53,220 nt of DNA from a virus. Made by a program: the position numbers and the translations under genes. Under the pieces are notes generated by a model that saw only the letters and a list, made by a program, of their open reading frames with translations, searched no databases and was not told the origin of the DNA. Positions 2,437-52,721 of this stretch are shown here, one piece after another. Location of the stretch: IMG/VR virus record IMGVR_UViG_3300035670_000282, positions 1-53,220 of that record, one strand, 5' to 3'. Every line of letters starts with the position of its first letter. Position 1 is the stretch's first letter.

Positions 2437-3051
2437 TTAACTAATAGCATTATCAATATGATTCTGCCAAACAAATCCTCCTGCTGATTTCTTCTTTCCT
2501 TTACAAACTTTAATAATAGAACTTGGATCTATTCCTAATTCAAAAGCAGCTTCTCTAGCAGAAAACCAAATCTTAATAATCTTGCCAGTTTCTTTGTCTA
2601 TTTGGGCAGTTTTTATAGCTTTAGATTTAGCTGAATTTTCTTCTAAAGAAATCCATTGACAGTTTTCTTTGAAGTATCCTAATTTAGAAGATATTCGATC
2701 AATAGTTAAATCGTCACTATAACCTTCTTGCATATCTTCCCAAAAACCTTCAAAAGTATTCCATTTATCACAAACAGTTACTCCTTTAGCTCCATAATCT
2801 ACATAACTATCATGGTTTGGATTAGAGCAGCGTTGTTTCATATTTCCATGTATTCTTCTAGCTCTATCTAATGACTTATCAAACTTAGTTAATGGACTAC
2901 AGTTATTGCCAGTACTACCACAACTTTGTAATTTTAATCCATTGTAATAAGGTTTTTCTACTTCTTGATTACAGTAAGAGCATTTAAATAATCCAAATCT
3001 AACTTTTGAATTACCATACTCTCTCATATCTAACTTTCTAATCAATAACAT
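2437..3051 (-). CDS. free-standing HNH-type endonuclease next to the capsid gene
   Basis: The 204-residue product begins with a zinc-ribbon-like CSYCNQEVEKPYYNG segment and continues with a motif common in phage HNH homing nucleases: RIHGNMKQRCSNPNHDSYVD, then YGAKGVTVCDKW, and TIDRISSKLGYFKENCQW. The C-terminal third (SAREAAFELGIDPSSIIKVC) looks like a NUMOD-type DNA-binding helix-turn-helix. The gene is inserted between the capsid gene and its downstream partner and is probably mobile, cutting capsid-less relatives. Its start codon lies at the edge of a 12-bp hairpin. MREYG at 3027 is an alternative start. Confidence 0.85.
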   Translation of the reverse strand: MLLIRKLDMREYGNSKVRFGLFKCSYCNQEVEKPYYNGLKLQSCGSTGNNCSPLTKFDKSLDRARRIHGNMKQRCSNPNHDSYVDYGAKGVTVCDKWNTFEGFWEDMQEGYSDDLTIDRISSKLGYFKENCQWISLEENSAKSKAIKTAQIDKETGKIIKIWFSAREAAFELGIDPSSIIKVCKGKKKSAGGFVWQNHIDNAIS

Positions 3052-3117: not shown

Positions 3118-4614
3118 TTACCACTCTGCAAGCGAGTAAGTTAGGGCAATGTGCTCCGGTCTAAGTACCATGAACCCATACCACCATTTTATACTGAAAA
3201 ATCCAGTCTCACCATAAGGATCTTGAGTGGTGTGATTCTGAGCAGGAGGTACATGCTTGGTCTTAAACTTAACAGACTTACCGCTAGTCTGGAAACCAAT
3301 AGTGGTAAAGGAACCACTACCAACAACCAGCATAGGATAAACATTATAAGCGAAACCAGCACCATCAGCAGTAGAAGCATAACGGAAGAGAGTAGTCTCT
3401 TCAGCAGCATCAGCTACAGCACTACCAGCAGCATCCCAATGCATCATCTCAGGAACAACAATGAAGCGATAGTTATCTACTGCACCTACTTCACCTCTAG
3501 CTACCTGACCAGCAGAAGCATAACTAGCTACAGGAATAAATGCCTTATTACCATGATAGTCAGTCATCTTCATAATAGTAGGAAGAAGCTCAGAACCAAT
3601 ATAGATATACCGAGCAGCATTAACTACCTTGGTATCAACCATACGGCTACCAGAGATGAGAGTAGTATTCTTAGGACAACGGTTGTTATCTAGCTCAATA
3701 GAGCCCTTAACAAGGTCATCATAAGTAATAACATCATTGTTAGCATAGGTAGCATCATCACCATTAATAGTAGCTACAGAAGTAGCAGCACCAGGATAAC
3801 GAACTACACCAGCAGCATTGAGAAGGTCAATCTGAAGCTGATCTTCAGTCATCTCATTAGCAGCCTTAACTACTTCCTGAGTCAGATGCATCATCAGCTC
3901 AGAGTCAGTATCAAAGTCCATAGAATCCTGAGTGTACTCAGTGAAGAAGCCGAACTTCTCAATAGTACCTTCAAGTTCAATACGCTTCATACCAACACGA
4001 TTGACTCTACCACCAGTTTCAGACAGAGTAGGAATCTTACCCTGAATAGTACCTACATCCTTACTAGAACCATAAAGATTACCATAGTTACTATCATCAG
4101 TAGCAGCAATAGAAGTAACAGTGTAATCAGCACCAATAGCAGTTACAAATGCAGCATAAGAAGCAGCAGCATCAGTAGCAATATTAGTAATTGCACCAGG
4201 AACATAGCCTTCATTAGCAGCCCAAGCATTAAAATTAGCTTGTGCTTCTAGCAGTGCAGCAGCAGCACTAGTAGTGGAATCACCACGGAAGTACATGGTT
4301 TGGGATACAGGTTGACCTGCTCTTAGAACAGAAATATATGCAACCTTCTTAGCAGTAGCAGAAGCTAAAGCACCAGTAGCATCAATACCCATATCGTTAA
4401 GGTTACGATCATCCAGAATAGGAAGATAGTGGTATTGCTTAATGGTCTTACCCATGTTCTTAGGCATAGCTCTGGCATTAGCCATCTGACCAAAGTAAGT
4501 TTCTTTAGCAGCTTCTACTAGAGCCTTCTTATAAATATAATCAGTACGAAGCTGATTACCTACAGTAGAAGAAGAACCTCCTACTGGATCGTTATACATC
4601 ATCCCATTAGCCAT
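3118..4614 (-). CDS. major capsid protein, N4 gp56 family
   Basis: The 498-residue product has the N-terminal pattern of the N4-gp56 capsid family: RTDYIYKKALVEAAKETYFG, then MPKNMGKTIKQYHYLPILDD. The middle carries EKFGFFTEYTQDSMDFDTDS and the C-terminal part carries KHVPPAQNHTTQDPYGETGF and WWYGFMVLRPEHIA. It should form the HK97-fold icosahedral shell. The gene follows the scaffold-like and portal genes, as in N4. Codon choice is a little richer in GC and more regular than in its neighbours, typical of a highly expressed gene. Open frames on the opposite strand here are shadows of this biased coding sequence. Confidence 0.95.
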   Translation of the reverse strand: MANGMMYNDPVGGSSSTVGNQLRTDYIYKKALVEAAKETYFGQMANARAMPKNMGKTIKQYHYLPILDDRNLNDMGIDATGALASATAKKVAYISVLRAGQPVSQTMYFRGDSTTSAAAALLEAQANFNAWAANEGYVPGAITNIATDAAASYAAFVTAIGADYTVTSIAATDDSNYGNLYGSSKDVGTIQGKIPTLSETGGRVNRVGMKRIELEGTIEKFGFFTEYTQDSMDFDTDSELMMHLTQEVVKAANEMTEDQLQIDLLNAAGVVRYPGAATSVATINGDDATYANNDVITYDDLVKGSIELDNNRCPKNTTLISGSRMVDTKVVNAARYIYIGSELLPTIMKMTDYHGNKAFIPVASYASAGQVARGEVGAVDNYRFIVVPEMMHWDAAGSAVADAAEETTLFRYASTADGAGFAYNVYPMLVVGSGSFTTIGFQTSGKSVKFKTKHVPPAQNHTTQDPYGETGFFSIKWWYGFMVLRPEHIALTYSLAEW

Positions 4615-19133: not shown

Positions 19134-20726
19134 TTAAACAATATAGGAGAGTATATTACCATCTTCTTCTGTTATGTCATCTTCCCACACATCATTCCCT
19201 TGCTCATCCTTGTGTACAGACTCAATACTTGGTTTCCAAGCCCTAATACTAGCAAGCATTGAGATAGTGTCAAGGAAATCATCGTGCTTAGACTTAAATT
19301 GACCTGGAGCTACTAGGGATACTTCATCGTACATCTCTAATAATTCAGGAGAAGTTCTCATTTCTTCAGGAAACCAAAGCTTGTGAGATTTAAACCAAGG
19401 CACCACTAAATTAAATCTTTGTATCTTATTTGTATTAGGTCTAATACCTGGTTTCTGATTATTCCCTTCACTAGCTAATGGGAAGTAGATATTTCTAGTC
19501 ATCATTTGTTCCATGATCCAAGGAATAAATCCTGCTTGCTGTCCTGATACTTCTATACCTACTGACTGAGGTTGATACTGTTGAGCCAATCTAAATAAAT
19601 CATCTACATTCTTATCCATTAATTGACGCTTACAAATACCATCAACCCATAACCAATCCCCATTATTGTTATAAGCCCAAACAGAAATAACTGAATAGTC
19701 ACTAGCATTATTAGCACTAGTAGCAAAGTCAGTAGTAATATAAAAATTAAACTTACCTTTATTCTCTAATACTTTAGATCTCTTATACCATATTAGATCA
19801 GAATCTAAAATAACTCTATCTTCTTCAGACATAATTCGATTCATCATCTCAGCATTAAAGTCATGTATTCTGCCTAAAGCCACAGCATCATCATACATCT
19901 CTTTTACAGCTTCATAAGGAAATCTATCTTCCCAACTACCTCTAAATTCCTCTTTACTACAAGGAAATTCTTCACATACTGGGTATACTGAAGCACTCCA
20001 TCTACCAGATTCAATAAGTTTATACAAAGGATCTGCTTGTGAAAATACTGTACCAATGGCTATCATCTTTCTTTTAGTAGGATGCATAGCTTTATCAGCA
20101 GCCTTATGAATTGTATTCTCTATATTAGCTATAACTGTAGGTGATTTAGCATCTGTATCTGAAAGTAAGTCATCCATAATACATAATTCAGGTCTATGTG
20201 ATCCAGTACTATTTGTAAATCTAGTACCACGAATACCCATTTGGGCACCTACTAGTTTAATACCAAGTCTATGACCTTCTCTATTTTCTAATTCTATAAA
20301 TGCGTCTGTAAATCTAGTATCAATTATGTACTGCTGTAAAAATTCACTATTACCCCAAGTCATTTCAATAGATTTACGCATAGTCTTTGCACCACCTTCT
20401 TGACTATCTAAAATAGCTAGAATGTAGTTAACAATCCCAAAGTTATCTAATTCACCAAATGTAGCAATATATAAAGGCAAGTATGTAGTGAGTAGAGTAC
20501 TTTTAGCAAAACCTCTATGACAGAGTACAGCAATTTTATTTGTCTTACTAAATATATTATCTAAAAGTTGATAATGTACTACAGGTGTTTTATTACTCTC
20601 ACCACCACCAGCATTAACCAACTTCATAAAATTAACAAACTTAAGACTAGCATCACTTGGAGTATAATTAACTAAATTAGAATAATTAACTTCATTTAAA
20701 TATTCTTCTACTTTCTTAATTGGCAT
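19134..20726 (-). CDS. terL: terminase large subunit (N4 gp68-like)
   Basis: The 530-residue product has the two parts of a packaging motor. The ATPase part has a Walker A variant HRGFAKST at residues 70-77 and a Walker B segment LCIMDD at 181-186. The nuclease part has YITTDFATSANNASDYS around residue 330 with the first acidic residue, SVGIEVSGQQAGF near 390, and the acidic KHDDFLDT near 482. The start at 20726 has a GGAAGAA site and lies inside the last codons of an HNH gene, so the two are coupled. It pumps DNA into the prohead and cuts genome ends. Confidence 0.95.
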   Translation of the reverse strand: MPIKKVEEYLNEVNYSNLVNYTPSDASLKFVNFMKLVNAGGGESNKTPVVHYQLLDNIFSKTNKIAVLCHRGFAKSTLLTTYLPLYIATFGELDNFGIVNYILAILDSQEGGAKTMRKSIEMTWGNSEFLQQYIIDTRFTDAFIELENREGHRLGIKLVGAQMGIRGTRFTNSTGSHRPELCIMDDLLSDTDAKSPTVIANIENTIHKAADKAMHPTKRKMIAIGTVFSQADPLYKLIESGRWSASVYPVCEEFPCSKEEFRGSWEDRFPYEAVKEMYDDAVALGRIHDFNAEMMNRIMSEEDRVILDSDLIWYKRSKVLENKGKFNFYITTDFATSANNASDYSVISVWAYNNNGDWLWVDGICKRQLMDKNVDDLFRLAQQYQPQSVGIEVSGQQAGFIPWIMEQMMTRNIYFPLASEGNNQKPGIRPNTNKIQRFNLVVPWFKSHKLWFPEEMRTSPELLEMYDEVSLVAPGQFKSKHDDFLDTISMLASIRAWKPSIESVHKDEQGNDVWEDDITEEDGNILSYIV

Positions 20727-21510
20727 TATATTTCTTCCAGGTAAATCCTAAATACTGTCTACCTAATCTTATAGCCTTATTGAGTGGAGATATATCTTTT
20801 TTATTTAAATACTCTTTTAACTTTTCTATTGAATCTATTTTAATTAGAACATTACCTTGATTATCATACTGAACATAGGTTGAACAAGCTTTCTTAAATA
20901 CAGGAATTTCAGGATTGTTACTATATTTCCACATCCATTGTTTAGCTGTTTGATATTTCTTACTACAGCTAACACATATTGTAGCTATTGGAACTCCTGT
21001 TTCCTCACTAGCAAAAGACATACTCTTATATGATTTAATAAAGTTTCCTTCTAAATCATACTGATCTACTGGAACCAATGTACTAATAATATTATCACCG
21101 TTTCTAGCATCAATATGGCTTTTCTTATTATTCTCTCTAAAAGAAACCAATCTAATATTAGCTAGGGTATAAGGTAGTTTATTATCTAACCTATCTACTG
21201 AAGGTCTTTCCCACTTTGAATAATTACTATTCTTCCAATTATTAAATAGTATTTTAAAATTAAATTGATTAGTTATCCACTCAAATAATTCTTTTCTAGA
21301 ATAATTAGGTAAGTTTTGATTTCTTTCTTTAGAACTATTAATTTGTTCAGAATAAATTACAGAACAAAGCCCTCTTTCAGTTCTCTTATACTTAGTAACA
21401 ATCTCTTTAGTACATTCTTTACACCAAGTTACTCTACCTGTACTGGTGTTTTTATTCTTATGGAAAGAATCAATACTTTTAGTTTCTTTACAGTTGGTAC
21501 AAGTAATCAT
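20716..21510 (-). CDS. HNH homing-type endonuclease overlapping the terminase gene
   Basis: The 264-residue product begins with a four-cysteine zinc ribbon (CTNCKETKSIDSFHKN, then CKEC) followed by an HNH-like core RPSVDRLDNKLPYTLANIRL. Further on it carries NUMOD/helix-turn-helix repeats (DQYDLEGNFIKSYKSMSFAS; QYDNQGNVLIKIDSIEKLKE) that bind DNA. It sits between the gp69-like gene cluster and the large terminase, and its last ten bases overlap the terminase start. It looks like a free-standing homing endonuclease that inserted in the packaging operon and adapted its end to keep terminase translation. Confidence 0.88.
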   Translation of the reverse strand: MITCTNCKETKSIDSFHKNKNTSTGRVTWCKECTKEIVTKYKRTERGLCSVIYSEQINSSKERNQNLPNYSRKELFEWITNQFNFKILFNNWKNSNYSKWERPSVDRLDNKLPYTLANIRLVSFRENNKKSHIDARNGDNIISTLVPVDQYDLEGNFIKSYKSMSFASEETGVPIATICVSCSKKYQTAKQWMWKYSNNPEIPVFKKACSTYVQYDNQGNVLIKIDSIEKLKEYLNKKDISPLNKAIRLGRQYLGFTWKKYNAN

Positions 21511-31556: not shown

Positions 31557-32504
31557 TAATTTAAGTTAGGAAGTAATTAATTACTAAGATGAAAATAAAC
31601 AAATGATATTAGTAATTAATTATGGAGAGCTTAAGGGTTTCATACTAGAAATAGTATGTCAAAACTTGCCTAAAACGGGAAACTCTGATTACATTATATA
31701 ATGCTTGCATTTTTAGTACAAGCTGGTATAATGTAAAGACAATCCGTTACTAAATAGGTAAAGTTATGGAAATTTGGAAAGACATAGTTGGTTATGAAGG
31801 TTTATATGAAGTTTCTTCATTAGGTAGAATTAAATGCCTAGAGCGAAAAGTAAACACTAAAGGAAATAGTTTAAGAACAGTAAAAGAAAGAATCCGTAAA
31901 CCTCAAATTAAACAAAATGGTTATCATATAGTTAATTTAGGTAATGGAAAAGGTAAAGTAACAACTTTTAGTGTTCATCAAATAGTTGCTCAAGCTTTTA
32001 TTCCTGGTTTTATTAAAAGTACTGAAATCAATCATATTGACGGTAATCCAGGTAATAATAATATTAAAAATTTAGAAATTAGTAATCCCTCACACAATCA
32101 ATTACACGCTATATCTTTAGGTTTAAAACCTAAATATGGAGTCACTTCCAAATACTATCGTGTCTCTTATTTAAAAAATCCAAAAGCTAAAAATAAATGG
32201 GCAGTCTGTATAAATCATCAAGGAAAATCATCTTATGGATGGAAAACTTTTTATACAGAATTAGAAGCTGCTCAGTATGCTGATAAACTTTTAGATTTAA
32301 TAGGGGATACAGTTAGACCCCGTAACTTTCCTTAAATGTCCAACGACTATCCCATTTTGGGAGTACACCTAAGCAGGTGGAAACGGCAAGAATCTTAACA
32401 AGTAATGTTGAAGATTTTGATATAGTCTGCTCTGCATAGAAATATGCAGCAGTTACCTTTTAAGGTAACGGCTAGAAATTAGCGATTTCTAGTGAACATA
32501 TAGG
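31557..32504 (+). ncRNA. group I intron in the AAA ATPase gene
   Basis: The 948-base insert starts after an exon T and ends in G, as group I introns do. Near its 5' side it has AAAACGGGAAACTCTGA (P3-P4-like), a 10-bp TTACATTATA/TATAATGTAA stem (31691-31736), then the HNH gene, and near its 3' side CAACGACTATCCC, GTACACCTAAGCAGGTGG and GATATAGTC (P3/P7-P8-like). The second intron of the window shares the GTACACCTAAG-AGGTGGAAA block. The borders were placed by protein continuity. Confidence 0.88.
31766..32335 (+). CDS. intron-encoded HNH homing endonuclease
   Basis: The 189-residue product starts with a NUMOD4 motif (IWKDIVGYEGLYEVSSLGRI) and has an HNH_3-type core (VHQIVAQAFIPGF then EINHIDGNPGNNNIKNLEI). 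It sits fully inside the group I intron and should cut intronless alleles of the ATPase gene to spread the intron. A C-terminal segment YYRVSYLKNPKAKNKWAVCI resembles AP2-like DNA-binding strands. Confidence 0.92.
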   Translation: MEIWKDIVGYEGLYEVSSLGRIKCLERKVNTKGNSLRTVKERIRKPQIKQNGYHIVNLGNGKGKVTTFSVHQIVAQAFIPGFIKSTEINHIDGNPGNNNIKNLEISNPSHNQLHAISLGLKPKYGVTSKYYRVSYLKNPKAKNKWAVCINHQGKSSYGWKTFYTELEAAQYADKLLDLIGDTVRPRNFP

Positions 32505-46333: not shown

Positions 46334-47307
46334 TTAGTTTAAGCTCCTTTATGTAGTGATACATAAAGATAATCTCTCTAATTGCTGGAAACTCTTTAGA
46401 GCCAATCTAACTACAACATAAAGATGAAATATGCTTAAGTGTGAAAGTTTAAAAATAGATTGGATTAGACAATCAGCAGGTAAGCTCCGAATAGGAGAAA
46501 CTTCAACGACTAGCCTTATGGCGTACACCTAAGTAGGTGGAAATGGGAGATATCTTGATTAGTTTTACCATTTATGATATACTTAATTAAGTTTAACACA
46601 AAAGGTAAGACTCAAATGTGGAAAGATGTTGTAGGTTTTGAGGGGTATTATGAAGTATCAGATCAAGGTGAAGTCAGATCAGTAAAAAGAACTGTCCTGC
46701 AAAAAAATGGTAAACTCTCTACTTATCCAAGTCGATTACTTAAACCTGATACTTCTGGCACTAGTAAAACAATTTATTTAAGGGTATCTTTATCAAAGAA
46801 TAATAAAGTATCCCGACAACTTGTACATAGACTAGTAGCTCAAGCTTTTATCCCAAATCCTAATAATAAGCCTCATGTAAACCATGTAGATAATGATTCA
46901 TTAAATAATTCAGTATCAAATTTAGAATGGTGTACTCATTCAGAAAATATGATTCATGCTCAAAAGCAAAATAGATTATTTGAATCTCAATCTAAAGGTG
47001 GAAAGTTAGGTGGATCAAGAGCAGTTGAAAAAGTTAATAAAAAATTAGAAAGTATATTAAATACTACAGTAAACAACTGGTATGTAAATAAAGCTTTAGG
47101 TAAAGATAAGCATAATCATTATATACTTGGAGTTACCTGTGTTAACTGTAATACAGAATATACTAGAACATTAACTTATCTAACAAACTCTTTTACAACT
47201 TCTTGCATTAAATGTAAATCAAGATAAAGATATAGTCTGGTCTATATAGAGATATATAGCTGTATTTATACAGAGTAAGAATTAACGACTCTTACTGAAC
47301 ATAAACG
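46334..47307 (+). ncRNA. group I intron in the helicase-primase gene
   Basis: A 974-base insert begins after T and ends in G. It contains TTCAACGACTAGCC, GTACACCTAAGTAGGTGG, AAGATATAGTCTGGTC and a closing TAACGACTCTTACTGAAC, all in the order of group I cores. Unlike the first intron, the HNH gene comes after the GTACACCTAAG block and before the GATATAGTC block. Borders are set by protein continuity. Confidence 0.88.
46616..47227 (+). CDS. intron-encoded HNH homing endonuclease
   Basis: The start was set at the ATG at 46616 (MWKDVVGFEGYYEVSDQGEV), which has AAGGTAAG upstream and is the usual NUMOD4 start, giving 203 residues. The HNH_3 core is VHRLVAQAFIPNPNNKPHVN, then HVDNDSLNNSVSNLEWCTHS. 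The C-terminal part has paired cysteines (CVNC and CIKC) as a zinc finger. It should mobilise the second intron. It is related to the HNH in the first intron but clearly diverged. Confidence 0.92.
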   Translation: MWKDVVGFEGYYEVSDQGEVRSVKRTVLQKNGKLSTYPSRLLKPDTSGTSKTIYLRVSLSKNNKVSRQLVHRLVAQAFIPNPNNKPHVNHVDNDSLNNSVSNLEWCTHSENMIHAQKQNRLFESQSKGGKLGGSRAVEKVNKKLESILNTTVNNWYVNKALGKDKHNHYILGVTCVNCNTEYTRTLTYLTNSFTTSCIKCKSR

Positions 47308-49230
47308 AAGACTTACTCTTCTAATATTATTGAAGAGACTGTTATTAGACAATTCAAGGAAATATTTACTAATAGTACATTCCTTGGTTTAGCTGAAATT
47401 AGTCTTGCCAATCTAGCAGTACAAAGAGCTAGAAAGTATAACGAAGATCCAGATACTATGAGAGAAGCTCTTGAGAAGGAGTTTAACTCACTAGGTCCAT
47501 TAGTATTCTCATTTGACTCTGGTACTTCTCCAGCAGTTAAACAGATGAGGCATAAACTCCTAATGGCTGGAGCAGGTAGTATTAATTTAATAGTAGATGA
47601 AATTGGTTCTAATCTGGTTTCTAATACCGATGTATTAAATACATTCCTAGAACTTTATGATGTAGGAAAGATTAAACAGAAACTAGTTAAGAATACCAAA
47701 GATAATACTCGTACAGAAGAAATAGATGGTAGGACTCCTACTAATATGATGTTGTATGGTACTCCTTCTAAGTTATTAAATGGATCTAAGACTGAAGAAG
47801 AGTTCTACTCTATGTTAGAAACTGGTTATGCTAGAAGATGTTTATTTGGTTTTGCTAAGAAAGTAAATAAGCTCTATCAGTCCTCTCCAGAAGAAATCTA
47901 CGATATGTTAGTAGATAACTCTTCAGAACAATTCCTTGATGATCTATCTAATCATATTGGTTCTCTAGCTGATATTGTTCACTTTAATAAGAAGTTACAA
48001 ATGAGTAAAGATTTAGCCTTATTACTCATTGAATACAGACTGAGATGTGAACGTATAGCGGATAGTTTAAAAGACCATGAAGAGATCCTTAAAGCTGAAA
48101 TATCTCATAGATATTATAAAGCTCTGAAGTTATCTGGTGCTTATGCCTTCATAGAAGGTAATCCAGAAATAACAGAAGATAATCTATATGCAGCTATTAA
48201 GAGAGTAGAAGAATCAGGTGAAGCATTTACTGAAATTCTTACAAGAGAACGTAACTATGAAAAGTTAGCTAAGTATATTGCCTCTGTAGGTAAAGAAGTA
48301 ACTCAAGTAGATCTAGTAGAAGATCTTCCATTCTATAAGGGAAGTGAATCTTCTAAGAGAGACTTAATGAATCTAGCAGTAGCTTATGGCTATAAGCATA
48401 ATATTATTATTAAGAAGTCTTTCTCTGATGGTATTGAGTTCTTCCAAGGTGAGTCTATGGATGAAACAGATCTAAACCAATTAATCTGTTCATACAGCTT
48501 AGATATTGCTAAGGACTTTAAGGATGAAATAGCACCTTGGGATAAGTTATATAAGATGGTTACAGCAGATGGTATTCATTACACTGCACATCACTTTGAC
48601 AGTGGCTATAGGAATGCCTCTAAGGTCATACCAGGCTTTAATCTAGTCATAGTGGACGTAGACCAAGGTATCAAGCTAGACACTGCCAGAGAGCTTTTGG
48701 CAGGCTTTAAAGCACTATACGCAACTACCAAGAGGCATACTCCTGAAGAGAATAGATTCAGGATCATATTTCCTTTATCACATATCGTTAAGCTTAATCC
48801 TGCTACCTATAGTAAGTTTATGCTTAATGTATTTAATTGGCTTCCATTTGAAGTGGATAGTCAAACCAAAGATATATCCCGTAAATGGGAATCCTTTAAT
48901 GGTCAATACCACTATGAAGATGGAGAGCTATTAGATGCAATGCTCTTTATTCCTGAAACTAAGAAACAGGAAGATCAACATAAAAAAGTATTAGATCATG
49001 GCTCACTAGATAATCTACAAAGATGGTTCCTATTTAATACCAATTCAGGTAATAGAAATAATCAGCTATTTAAGTTAGGAACAGCATTACTAGATTCTGG
49101 TAAGAGCTTTAGAGAAGTAAGGGATTCAGTCCTTAACTTCAATAACCAACTATCTGATCCTCTATCTGAAGAGGAAATAGATAAAACAATAATGGTCTCC
49201 ATTATGAATAAACTTCAACAAAAACCATAA
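47308..49230 (+). CDS. helicase-primase, exon 2 (ATPase plus archaeo-eukaryotic-type primase)
   Basis: Exon 2 adds 640 residues. The first half carries the ATPase continuation (LIVDEIGSNLVSNTDVLNTF as Walker B-like, GRTPTNMMLYGTPSKLL as sensor) in the style of DUF3987 helicase-like proteins. The last third has FNLVIVDVDQGIKLDTAREL (DxD), YATTKRHTPEENRFRIIFPL (sxH-like) and NRNNQLFKLGTALLDSGKSF (PriCT-like), the features of archaeo-eukaryotic primase-polymerases. It would unwind and prime DNA beside the split polymerase and SSB. The first in-frame ATG of the exon is at 47458, but the reading frame begins at the splice point. Confidence 0.88.
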   Translation, partial: KTYSSNIIEETVIRQFKEIFTNSTFLGLAEISLANLAVQRARKYNEDPDTMREALEKEFNSLGPLVFSFDSGTSPAVKQMRHKLLMAGAGSINLIVDEIGSNLVSNTDVLNTFLELYDVGKIKQKLVKNTKDNTRTEEIDGRTPTNMMLYGTPSKLLNGSKTEEEFYSMLETGYARRCLFGFAKKVNKLYQSSPEEIYDMLVDNSSEQFLDDLSNHIGSLADIVHFNKKLQMSKDLALLLIEYRLRCERIADSLKDHEEILKAEISHRYYKALKLSGAYAFIEGNPEITEDNLYAAIKRVEESGEAFTEILTRERNYEKLAKYIASVGKEVTQVDLVEDLPFYKGSESSKRDLMNLAVAYGYKHNIIIKKSFSDGIEFFQGESMDETDLNQLICSYSLDIAKDFKDEIAPWDKLYKMVTADGIHYTAHHFDSGYRNASKVIPGFNLVIVDVDQGIKLDTARELLAGFKALYATTKRHTPEENRFRIIFPLSHIVKLNPATYSKFMLNVFNWLPFEVDSQTKDISRKWESFNGQYHYEDGELLDAMLFIPETKKQEDQHKKVLDHGSLDNLQRWFLFNTNSGNRNNQLFKLGTALLDSGKSFREVRDSVLNFNNQLSDPLSEEEIDKTIMVSIMNKLQQKP

Positions 49231-51493: not shown

Positions 51494-51943
51494 ATGAATA
51501 TATATTTAAATAATAGTGAGCTTACAGAAGCTCTAATTAGTTATGTTAAAACTAGGTATGGTTTAGATGATAACAATGACTTTACTATTCAACTTAAAGC
51601 TGGTAGGAATTGGAAGACTAGAGTAAGTAAGGGTAATTCAGCAGTTATTACTGTAGCTGAAAGACGTGATCCTAATGCTCCAGTACAGCTAGAACTGCCC
51701 CTAGAAGAGCCTGTAAGCTCTCCAGAAGAGGTAAGTGCTACTCAGGTATTGGTAGAGCCTGTAGAAGCTGCTGTAGACGATTCTGCACCCTTTGAAGAGG
51801 ATGTCATTGAGGAAGATGAACCAGAAGATGAACCAGAAGAAGGAATAGAACCTCCTAAGTTCTTCTCTAATCCTTCACTTAAGGATATTGAGCAGATTAA
51901 GGAACCAGAAGATAAACCTTCCTTTAAGTCTCTCTTTGCATGA
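51494..51943 (+). CDS. acidic protein with SSB-like C-terminal tip
   Basis: The 149-residue product has a small folded N-terminal part (MNIYLNNSELTEALISYVKT), then a long acidic, proline-rich linker (EEDVIEEDEPEDEPEEGIEP) and ends KPSFKSLFA. The last residues closely resemble the SSB ending PKKSLFS. The linker plus tip is how SSB-family proteins recruit partners. It follows the resolvase gene, and its TGA overlaps the next ATG. Function is unknown; competition or cooperation with SSB for one partner is inferred. Confidence 0.75.
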   Translation: MNIYLNNSELTEALISYVKTRYGLDDNNDFTIQLKAGRNWKTRVSKGNSAVITVAERRDPNAPVQLELPLEEPVSSPEEVSATQVLVEPVEAAVDDSAPFEEDVIEEDEPEDEPEEGIEPPKFFSNPSLKDIEQIKEPEDKPSFKSLFA

Positions 51944-52107
51944 ATAAGTTAAAAGCTATACTATTAACTCCAGTAGTTATAGCAATAACTATTGTATTCA
52001 CCTTCCTTATACCAATACTTACATTTGGTTTTTTATTTCTAATAGTTGGTTACATTCTATATATGTTAATCAATGATTATTTAGAAGAACAAAACCAAGA
52101 TGAGTAA
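51940..52107 (+). CDS. two-span membrane protein, 55 aa
   Basis: ATG at 51940 (ATGA overlap) to TAA at 52107 encodes MNKLKAILLTPVVIAITIVF, then LTFGFLFLIVGYILYMLIND and an acidic tail. Two closely spaced hydrophobic segments suggest a hairpin in the membrane. It is the last AT-rich gene before a sharp rise in GC. Confidence 0.72.
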   Translation: MNKLKAILLTPVVIAITIVFTFLIPILTFGFLFLIVGYILYMLINDYLEEQNQDE

Positions 52108-52126
52108 TCCCCTTGCTAGTAATAGC

Positions 52127-52339
52127 TGACAGCCTGGAACAGACAGGCACTTAATAACTCGAACCTTTCCAAGCTAACCCTCGAAAGAGTGGATGGATGC
52201 AGGCGAAGTAGTTAGCACGACGATCCTGCCCTCGGCCATGCGGAGATGAACAGGCGAACCACCTGCCGGAGACATGGTATGCAAAGCCCAGTGCACGGGG
52301 CCTGTGGTGACAGCCGGGAGAGACCGGCACCTACTAACT
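52127..52339 (+). ncRNA. GC-rich structured RNA or repeat-bounded element
   Basis: The 213-base non-coding stretch is bounded by two copies of one motif: TGACA-GCCTG-loop-CAGGC-ACTTAATAACT (52127-52159) and TGACA-GCCGG-loop-CCGGC-ACCTACTAACT (52308-52339). The fifth stem pair changes T-A to G-C. Inside are CTC-GAAA-GAG (52180-52189), GCTAAC (52173)/GTTAGC (52211) interleaved with GCAGG (52199)/CCTGC (52225), a nested CCATGCGG/CCG-GAGA-CATGG arm with CAGG/CCTG (52236-52277), and GCCC/GGGC (52286-52301). No known RNA family is recognised. Confidence 0.65.
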
Positions 52340-52358
52340 TAACTAAGAGGTAATTACC

Positions 52359-52622
52359 GTGGAAGAAAGAGATTTTGGATGGGCATTACGTGGCCTAAAA
52401 CAAGGGCGCAAGCTGCGTCGTAGCGGTTGGAATGGGAAAGGCTTGAGTGTTGAGCTACAGGTTCCTGACGCCAACAGTAAAATGACGCTTCCTTACATCT
52501 TTATGAACTACCCTGCTACACCTGCAAGTGATACAGCACCACCAAATCACATCAATGCCAAAGTTCCGTGGCTCGCATCTCAGACCGATATGCTTGCCGC
52601 TGATTGGGAAATTGCAGAGTAG
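52359..52622 (+). CDS. DUF2829-family protein, GTG start
   Basis: The 87-residue frame begins at GTG 52359 with AAGAGG upstream. The product has FGWALRGLKQGRKLRRSGWN then GKGLSVELQVPDANSKMTLP, followed by VPWLASQTDMLAADWEIAE. This is the DUF2829 pattern (F..AL..LK.G..v.R.GWNGK, final W..S..D.la.DW). The family is common in phages with no known activity. GC content is far above the preceding genes, suggesting separate origin. Confidence 0.9.
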   Translation: MEERDFGWALRGLKQGRKLRRSGWNGKGLSVELQVPDANSKMTLPYIFMNYPATPASDTAPPNHINAKVPWLASQTDMLAADWEIAE

Positions 52623-52631
52623 AAATAAAAA

Positions 52632-52701
52632 CGCAGCAGAGCGCCATAGCTTGGGTTGATCGCTGAGGATGGTCGGAGGGTGCTAGCCCCTCCCTGCTGC
52701 G
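52632..52701 (+). ncRNA. 70-nt three-way-junction candidate
   Basis: CGCAGCAG (52632-52639) pairs perfectly with CTGCTGCG (52694-52701). Inside, AGCG (52640-52643) pairs with CGCT (52661-52664) and GGAGGG (52675-52680) with CCCTCC (52688-52693), leaving GAGGATGGTC as junction. It lies 20 bases before the next start codon, so it could be a 5'-leader element or a terminator of the DUF2829 gene. Confidence 0.6.
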
Positions 52702-52721
52702 CCCTATTTGGAGAGTAAGAA

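Follow-up and report, generated by a model that had tools for sequence, protein, structure and literature searches.

What is the non-coding stretch at positions 52127-52339 of a 53,220-base virus record of an N4-like podovirus (the whole record, IMGVR_UViG_3300035670_000282, is the window analysed here), and what could it do for the phage? A preliminary description, made from the letters alone, took these 213 nt for one element bounded by two copies of a hairpin motif. According to our analysis the conserved unit is not the 213-nt stretch; it is a 25-nt motif with an adjoining helix, and each copy is an independent instance of it. The motif belongs to the RNA level, folds compactly into two helices and stands at the 5' edge of a unit. 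We favour, with a probability of roughly 45%, the reading that phages place this fold in cis, right at the 5' edge of whatever transcript unit comes next, be it a tRNA, a tRNA-like RNA, another non-coding RNA (ncRNA) or an mRNA.

Both copies are indeed present, by sequence and as matches to a covariance model. Copy 1 (52127..52148, plus strand) reads TGACA-GCCTG-GAACAGA-CAGGC, with a 7-nt loop, and is matched at 52126-52151 with 34.5 bits (E 6.7e-7); copy 2 (52308..52328, plus strand) reads TGACA-GCCGG-GAGAGA-CCGGC, followed by ACC, and is matched at 52307-52331 with 38.7 bits (E 4.5e-8). The motif thus consists of a UGACA linker, a 5-bp stem (P2) and a GARAGA loop, 21-22 nt together, plus a variable helix P1. 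The details given in the preliminary description hold in part. One stem pair differs between the copies (T-A versus G-C) with the pairing kept, but it is the fourth from the outside and not the fifth; the loops are both GA-rich but of different length, 7 and 6 nt; and from the proposed common tail ACxTAxTAACT other phages share only AC(C) downstream of the stem, while the rest does not recur.

The conservation was assessed by scans in which parts of the motif were left free, since pairing in the model alignment A1 arises by selection and was excluded from the evidence. A scan fixing TGACAG.C.GGARAGAC.G.C, with two stem pairs free, found both pairs kept at 120 of 123 unique viral sites and one pair at 3 of 123 (14% expected), which bears out the earlier proposal that it is pairing rather than sequence that is conserved. 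The corresponding count among genome sites, a set biased to near-consensus stems, was 110 of 123 (14% expected). With the loop left free, GARAGA was found at 88 of 93 unique sites; with the 5' side free, the sites lacking TGACA were still NGRCA-like, most frequently TGGCA, AGACA and CGACA. When all five pairs were left free, 82 stretches came up; most are due to chance, but 7 are fully paired, with several different stems. A chance origin of the motif is ruled out by these free-position scans. A protein-coding origin was rejected as well: changes in the stem are compensated, the flanks are unconserved, and most annotated phages have no feature under the match; the stretch had been described as non-coding, and we met no homologous reading frame over the motif. 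The sequence upstream of the motif is unconserved too. A possible reading of the GARAGA loop is two sheared G-A pairs with two purines as their cap; the 7-nt loops would then have the same arrangement plus one inserted base.

Evidence for the second helix comes from the position directly before the motif. A helix of at least 5 bp, with a loop of 3-30 nt and ending exactly at -1, occurs at 70 of 300 non-redundant sites, against 29.8 +/- 5.3 at control offsets. Moreover, the base at -1 predicts the third base of the loop: C goes with GAAAGA (91:1) and G with GAGAGA (78:35), with a Fisher p of 1.6e-27 for sites that are not fully independent. This dependence points to a tertiary fold, most simply explained by docking of the purine loop on the end of P1. 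Copy 2 of the window, with G at -1 and the loop GAGAGA, agrees with this rule. For copy 1, sequence and minimum free energy (MFE) folding place P1 at 52115..52126 (plus strand) as the hairpin GCTA-gtaa-TAGC adjoining the UGACA linker, and P1 together with the copy (52115-52151) has an MFE of -12.5 kcal/mol (z -2.6). Where copies stand in tandem, each hairpin doubles as P1 of the copy behind it, as in locus L496, where the gap is 20 nt. No enrichment was found for a pseudoknot of UGACA or of the loop with nearby TGTCA or TCTTTC.

We found no long upstream RNA that recurs throughout; upstream parts are specific to lineages, one example being the alphaproteobacterial hairpin set with GAGTAGGC. 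In those alphaproteobacterial phages (L452, L375, L417, L300, L334, L335, L347) the upstream GAGTAGGC is followed by a covarying hairpin and then by CTGCAACGTC-loop-GACG adjoining the motif. Enteric phages (L510 at 4028-4120, L514 at 2524-2690, L008, L504) carry a second recurring hairpin, CACAACAxGAAAGCGCATT...AGTGCGCTTxxGTTGTG, after the motif. Another arrangement is an early leader in which three motif copies surround an intrinsic terminator and repeated GAGGAAAGACCAA words (L516 at 3837-4060 and its relatives L009, L124, L148 and L470); leaders of this type are common to E. coli, Stenotrophomonas and other prophages.

It is the placement of the motif that speaks most directly about its role. 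Among tRNAs within 600 nt of a motif, 130 are in the sense orientation and 1 is antisense. A tRNA starts within 40 nt downstream at 29 of 438 motifs (0.46 expected), mostly after 4-7 nt, and the first 25-nt bin downstream alone holds a tRNA at 26 of the 438. When cloverleafs were searched as an acceptor stem joined to a T-arm, tRNA or tRNA-like structures were found to start 3-7 nt after P2 at about 35 of 392 non-redundant sites; two controls at the same offsets gave 0-1. The tRNA-like RNAs standing 3-7 nt after the motif (L276, L303, L319, L329, L505, L041, L088) are mostly uncalled by ARAGORN; in these loci the acceptor stem and a TTCGANT T-arm are intact and the anticodon domain is expanded or replaced, which is why many of them are missed by that program. 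They are possibly RNAs carried in a tRNA scaffold. In arrays the motif is repeated ahead of successive units (L058, L037, L331, L345), L058 being an array of motif-AACA-tRNA-like units.

Protein genes follow at another characteristic distance. Start codons lie 20-29 nt past P2 at 36 of 273 sites (3 in the antisense control), and where motifs come in pairs the second copy often stands 24-31 nt ahead of a start: 30 in the window, 24 in L002, 24 in L282, 30 in L308 and 31 in L356. Terminators within 25 nt downstream form a smaller class, 7 against roughly 1.6. In annotated phages the genes on the upstream side are co-directional with the motif in nearly all cases; the claim of orientation is taken from the tRNAs and the annotated records because a simple caller of open reading frames (ORFs) gave spurious antisense ORFs over GC-rich sites. 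This near-fixed distance ahead of tRNAs, tRNA-like RNAs and gene starts argues for an unrecognised RNA signal that marks or processes transcript units.

The motif is widespread in phages. BLAST of the 213-nt stretch against phages returned short matches only, all at the motif and mostly at unannotated positions, in cyanophages and in phages of Pseudomonas, Cronobacter, Klebsiella and Stenotrophomonas. Pattern scans found it in at least 120 IMG/VR stretches and in at least 120 stretches of GTDB bacterial genomes; Pseudomonadota, Bacteroidota, Clostridia, Spirochaetes, Chloroflexota and others are among the matches listed. Whole genomes carry one to a few motifs, often clustered. Matches in bacterial contigs have a prophage context where this was checked, and among 20 proteins encoded near genome matches several are of phage type, with roles in replication initiation or as terminase or repressor. 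In phage P1 a diverged copy lies between trnI and ban, at 71176-71200; there was no motif match in phages T4, P22, HK022 and LUZ7, and no significant one in the Rac and Qin prophages of K-12. A CRISPR spacer with the motif (L361, about 885-905, in an Anaerolineae array at 536-1461) is evidence of an Anaerolineae host having met a motif-bearing phage, as expected for a phage sequence. Being common to unrelated phages of many phyla, the motif must interact with something universal: RNA itself, RNA polymerase, RNase P or the ribosome.

How could a cis-acting fold at the 5' edge of a transcript unit work? We suggest that the nascent RNA would fold as P1-UGACA-P2 and dock its purine loop on P1, and that this compact fold would be a separator of units, setting or protecting the 5' boundary of the downstream RNA either by steering a cut to a site next to P2 or by keeping nucleases away. 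Spacings would then follow the needs of the next machine, with a leader of 3-7 nt before the tRNA 5' end, the site of the RNase P cut, and roughly 10 nt before a Shine-Dalgarno sequence. In the window, copy 2 would be the leader of the Tad2-like gene that follows it, and copy 1 the leader of the non-coding stretch. Several observations weigh against such a role. Only about a quarter of the motifs have an identified unit (tRNA, tRNA-like RNA or start) at a fixed spacing, as far as assignments by simple ORF and tRNA criteria go; P1 is seen as a simple hairpin in a minority of sites only; and in several lambdoid or prophage leaders the copies belong to the early leader and have intrinsic terminators close by, an arrangement that antitermination would explain equally well.

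A bolder and more doubtful version would make the motif a phage-wide punctuation mark in RNA, a conserved two-helix fold which, independently of phage proteins, would cut, cap or insulate each unit of phage transcripts, possibly by self-cleavage; the units in question would be genes, tRNAs and those tRNA-like RNAs whose anticodon domain is altered. In any case the fixed placement offers a simple way to test how phages divide up long transcripts, the motif leads to a set of phage tRNA-like RNAs, and it flags candidate leaders of accessory genes, here of a Tad2-like anti-defence gene.

The strongest rival, which we nevertheless hold to be unlikely, is a processive antiterminator of the put type, where the nascent two-helix RNA would bind RNA polymerase and let it pass terminators or Rho sites in untranslated stretches. 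Its attraction lies in the positions of several copies: between the repressor and the left operon (the place of nutL/putL) in mEp390 and in an E. coli prophage whose copies are separated by an intrinsic terminator; in the late leader of phiEt88, after a Q-like antitermination gene; and where the tRNA cluster region begins in Stenotrophomonas phage Pokken. Some enrichment of terminators within 25 nt downstream points the same way, and HK022 put likewise consists of two stem-loops and needs no phage protein (PMC9378689). Against this, HK022 itself has no motif match, and repetition at each unit with fixed spacing would be superfluous for a processive antiterminator. The motif is also present in N4-like phages with their own T7-type polymerase; because of this occurrence we prefer a role at the RNA level to one tied to the host polymerase, as the replication genes of N4-like phages would, by analogy with N4, be read by the phage enzyme.

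Less probable still is that P1, UGACA and the GARAGA hairpin together form a small self-cleaving ribozyme of a new kind, with the cut beside P2. Conserved unpaired bases in two strands, the tertiary contact, the compact size, the scattering across phages of many phyla and a fixed spacing to the new 5' ends that it would create are what one would expect of it, but the conserved positions tolerate substitutions (TGGCA, CGACA, AGACA, TGACT) and no Rfam ribozyme matches. About equally improbable is a cap for the 3' end of the upstream RNA, where the motif would shield the end left after RNase P cuts off a tRNA or tRNA-like RNA, much as the triple helix does for MALAT1 next to mascRNA. The tight junction of 3-7 nt to tRNA-like RNAs, with a stable fold immediately 5' of the cut, is consistent with it; however, most motifs have no tRNA or tRNA-like RNA behind them, many precede a Shine-Dalgarno sequence, and the upstream sequence is unconserved. 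That the stretch is a mobile unit or a recombination site with hairpin repeats as its ends, both offered in the preliminary description, is very improbable: two direct copies do bound the stretch in the window and other pairs stand 20-600 nt apart, but single copies are commoner, stems differ between copies in a compensatory way, the orientation to tRNAs is strict (130:1) and the interior is unconserved.

The interior of about 159 nt between the copies (52149..52307, plus strand) is non-coding and contains CTCGAAAGAG and other local hairpins. It may be a separate ncRNA unit. The idea of a large and densely folded phage RNA spanning the whole stretch has not survived: the 213 nt are no more stable than shuffles (z -0.23 on the plus strand, +0.34 on the minus strand), and neither the phage collection nor the fetched loci yielded a homologue of the interior beyond the motif itself. 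GC does climb near 52.1 kb, from about 30% to about 53%, as had been pointed out, but since it stays high across the next gene the rise probably marks an acquired cassette and not the element.

Upstream of copy 1 a 55-aa ORF (51940-52107) ends with its stop codon 20 nt before the motif. Copy 2 is followed by a Shine-Dalgarno-like AGAGG (52346..52350, plus strand) and by the Tad2-like gene (52359..52622, plus strand, with a GTG start), which carries a Thoeris anti-defence 2 domain (PF11195, E 4e-20, 72.6 bits with a cut-off of 25); a start-codon scan places its start 30 nt from copy 2. This gene is probably part of an acquired accessory cassette, the GC-rich segment that starts near 52.1 kb. 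We also considered that the motif could be tied specifically to Tad2 genes, and rejected it, with 0 of 80 Tad2 relatives having the motif at the leader position. Past the gene, at 52630-52710, lies a long imperfect hairpin (GCAGCAG...GGAGGG-tgctag-CCCCTCC...CTGCTGC). Elsewhere the window encodes a T7-type RNA polymerase domain (PF00940, 28452-29423), a PriCT primase domain (47458-49227) and an ORF at 19134-20726 that we take to be terminase-like. The RNA polymerase (27424/28452) and the DNA polymerase (41703/43313) each seem to be split over two consecutive ORFs. An ORF for an HNH homing-type endonuclease is located at 46574-47227 (NUMOD4 and HNH_3 by Pfam), and three further ORFs resemble it (2437-3051, 20716-21510 and 31766-32335).

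Comparison with known systems is consistent with the earlier impression that the motif belongs to no known family. The window element has no match among the 4227 families of Rfam 15 at the gathering score or at E up to 10, and in 20 further loci the Rfam matches, none of them over the motif, were tRNAs and one frameshift element. Of the known self-cleaving ribozymes (hammerhead, hairpin, twister, pistol, hatchet and others) none has a match in either set. We found no description of the motif in the searchable literature. UGACAG resembles the substrate strand of the hairpin ribozyme, but its AGAA...GUCA strand is absent here. Phage RNase III and RNase P sites, as in T7 early mRNA and in phage tRNA operons, are likewise intergenic hairpins that separate the units of a polycistronic transcript, just 5' of tRNAs or genes; we know of no common motif among them with an invariant linker and loop across phyla. 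In MALAT1 a 3' triple helix is a stable fold directly upstream of the tRNA-like mascRNA, but the fold and the kingdom are different, and the majority of motif copies have no tRNA-like RNA behind.

Lambda nut (boxA-boxB) is also a short phage hairpin with a purine-rich loop, found in early leaders in several copies per genome; the motif differs from it by the 5-bp stem, GARAGA and the UGACA linker. Within 80 nt of the motif the most enriched 6-mers include no boxA words, though no search aimed at boxA was made, and a single cognate N protein is argued against by the spread of the motif over phages of many phyla. HK022 put lies downstream of early promoters and suppresses pausing and termination via the zinc-binding domain of beta', and to our knowledge it does not repeat ahead of tRNAs or single genes. 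Identity with put was rejected, as HK022 stays below significance with model R1 (best 9.8 bits, E 5.3). Put RNA is about 70 nt long and has two long stem-loops, and its ten known members resemble one another in sequence (PMC9378689). The position of our motif is comparable to that of put in mEp390 and in the E. coli prophage and not in tRNA clusters, and both are phage leader RNAs in which two adjacent helices form a tertiary structure without a dedicated protein.
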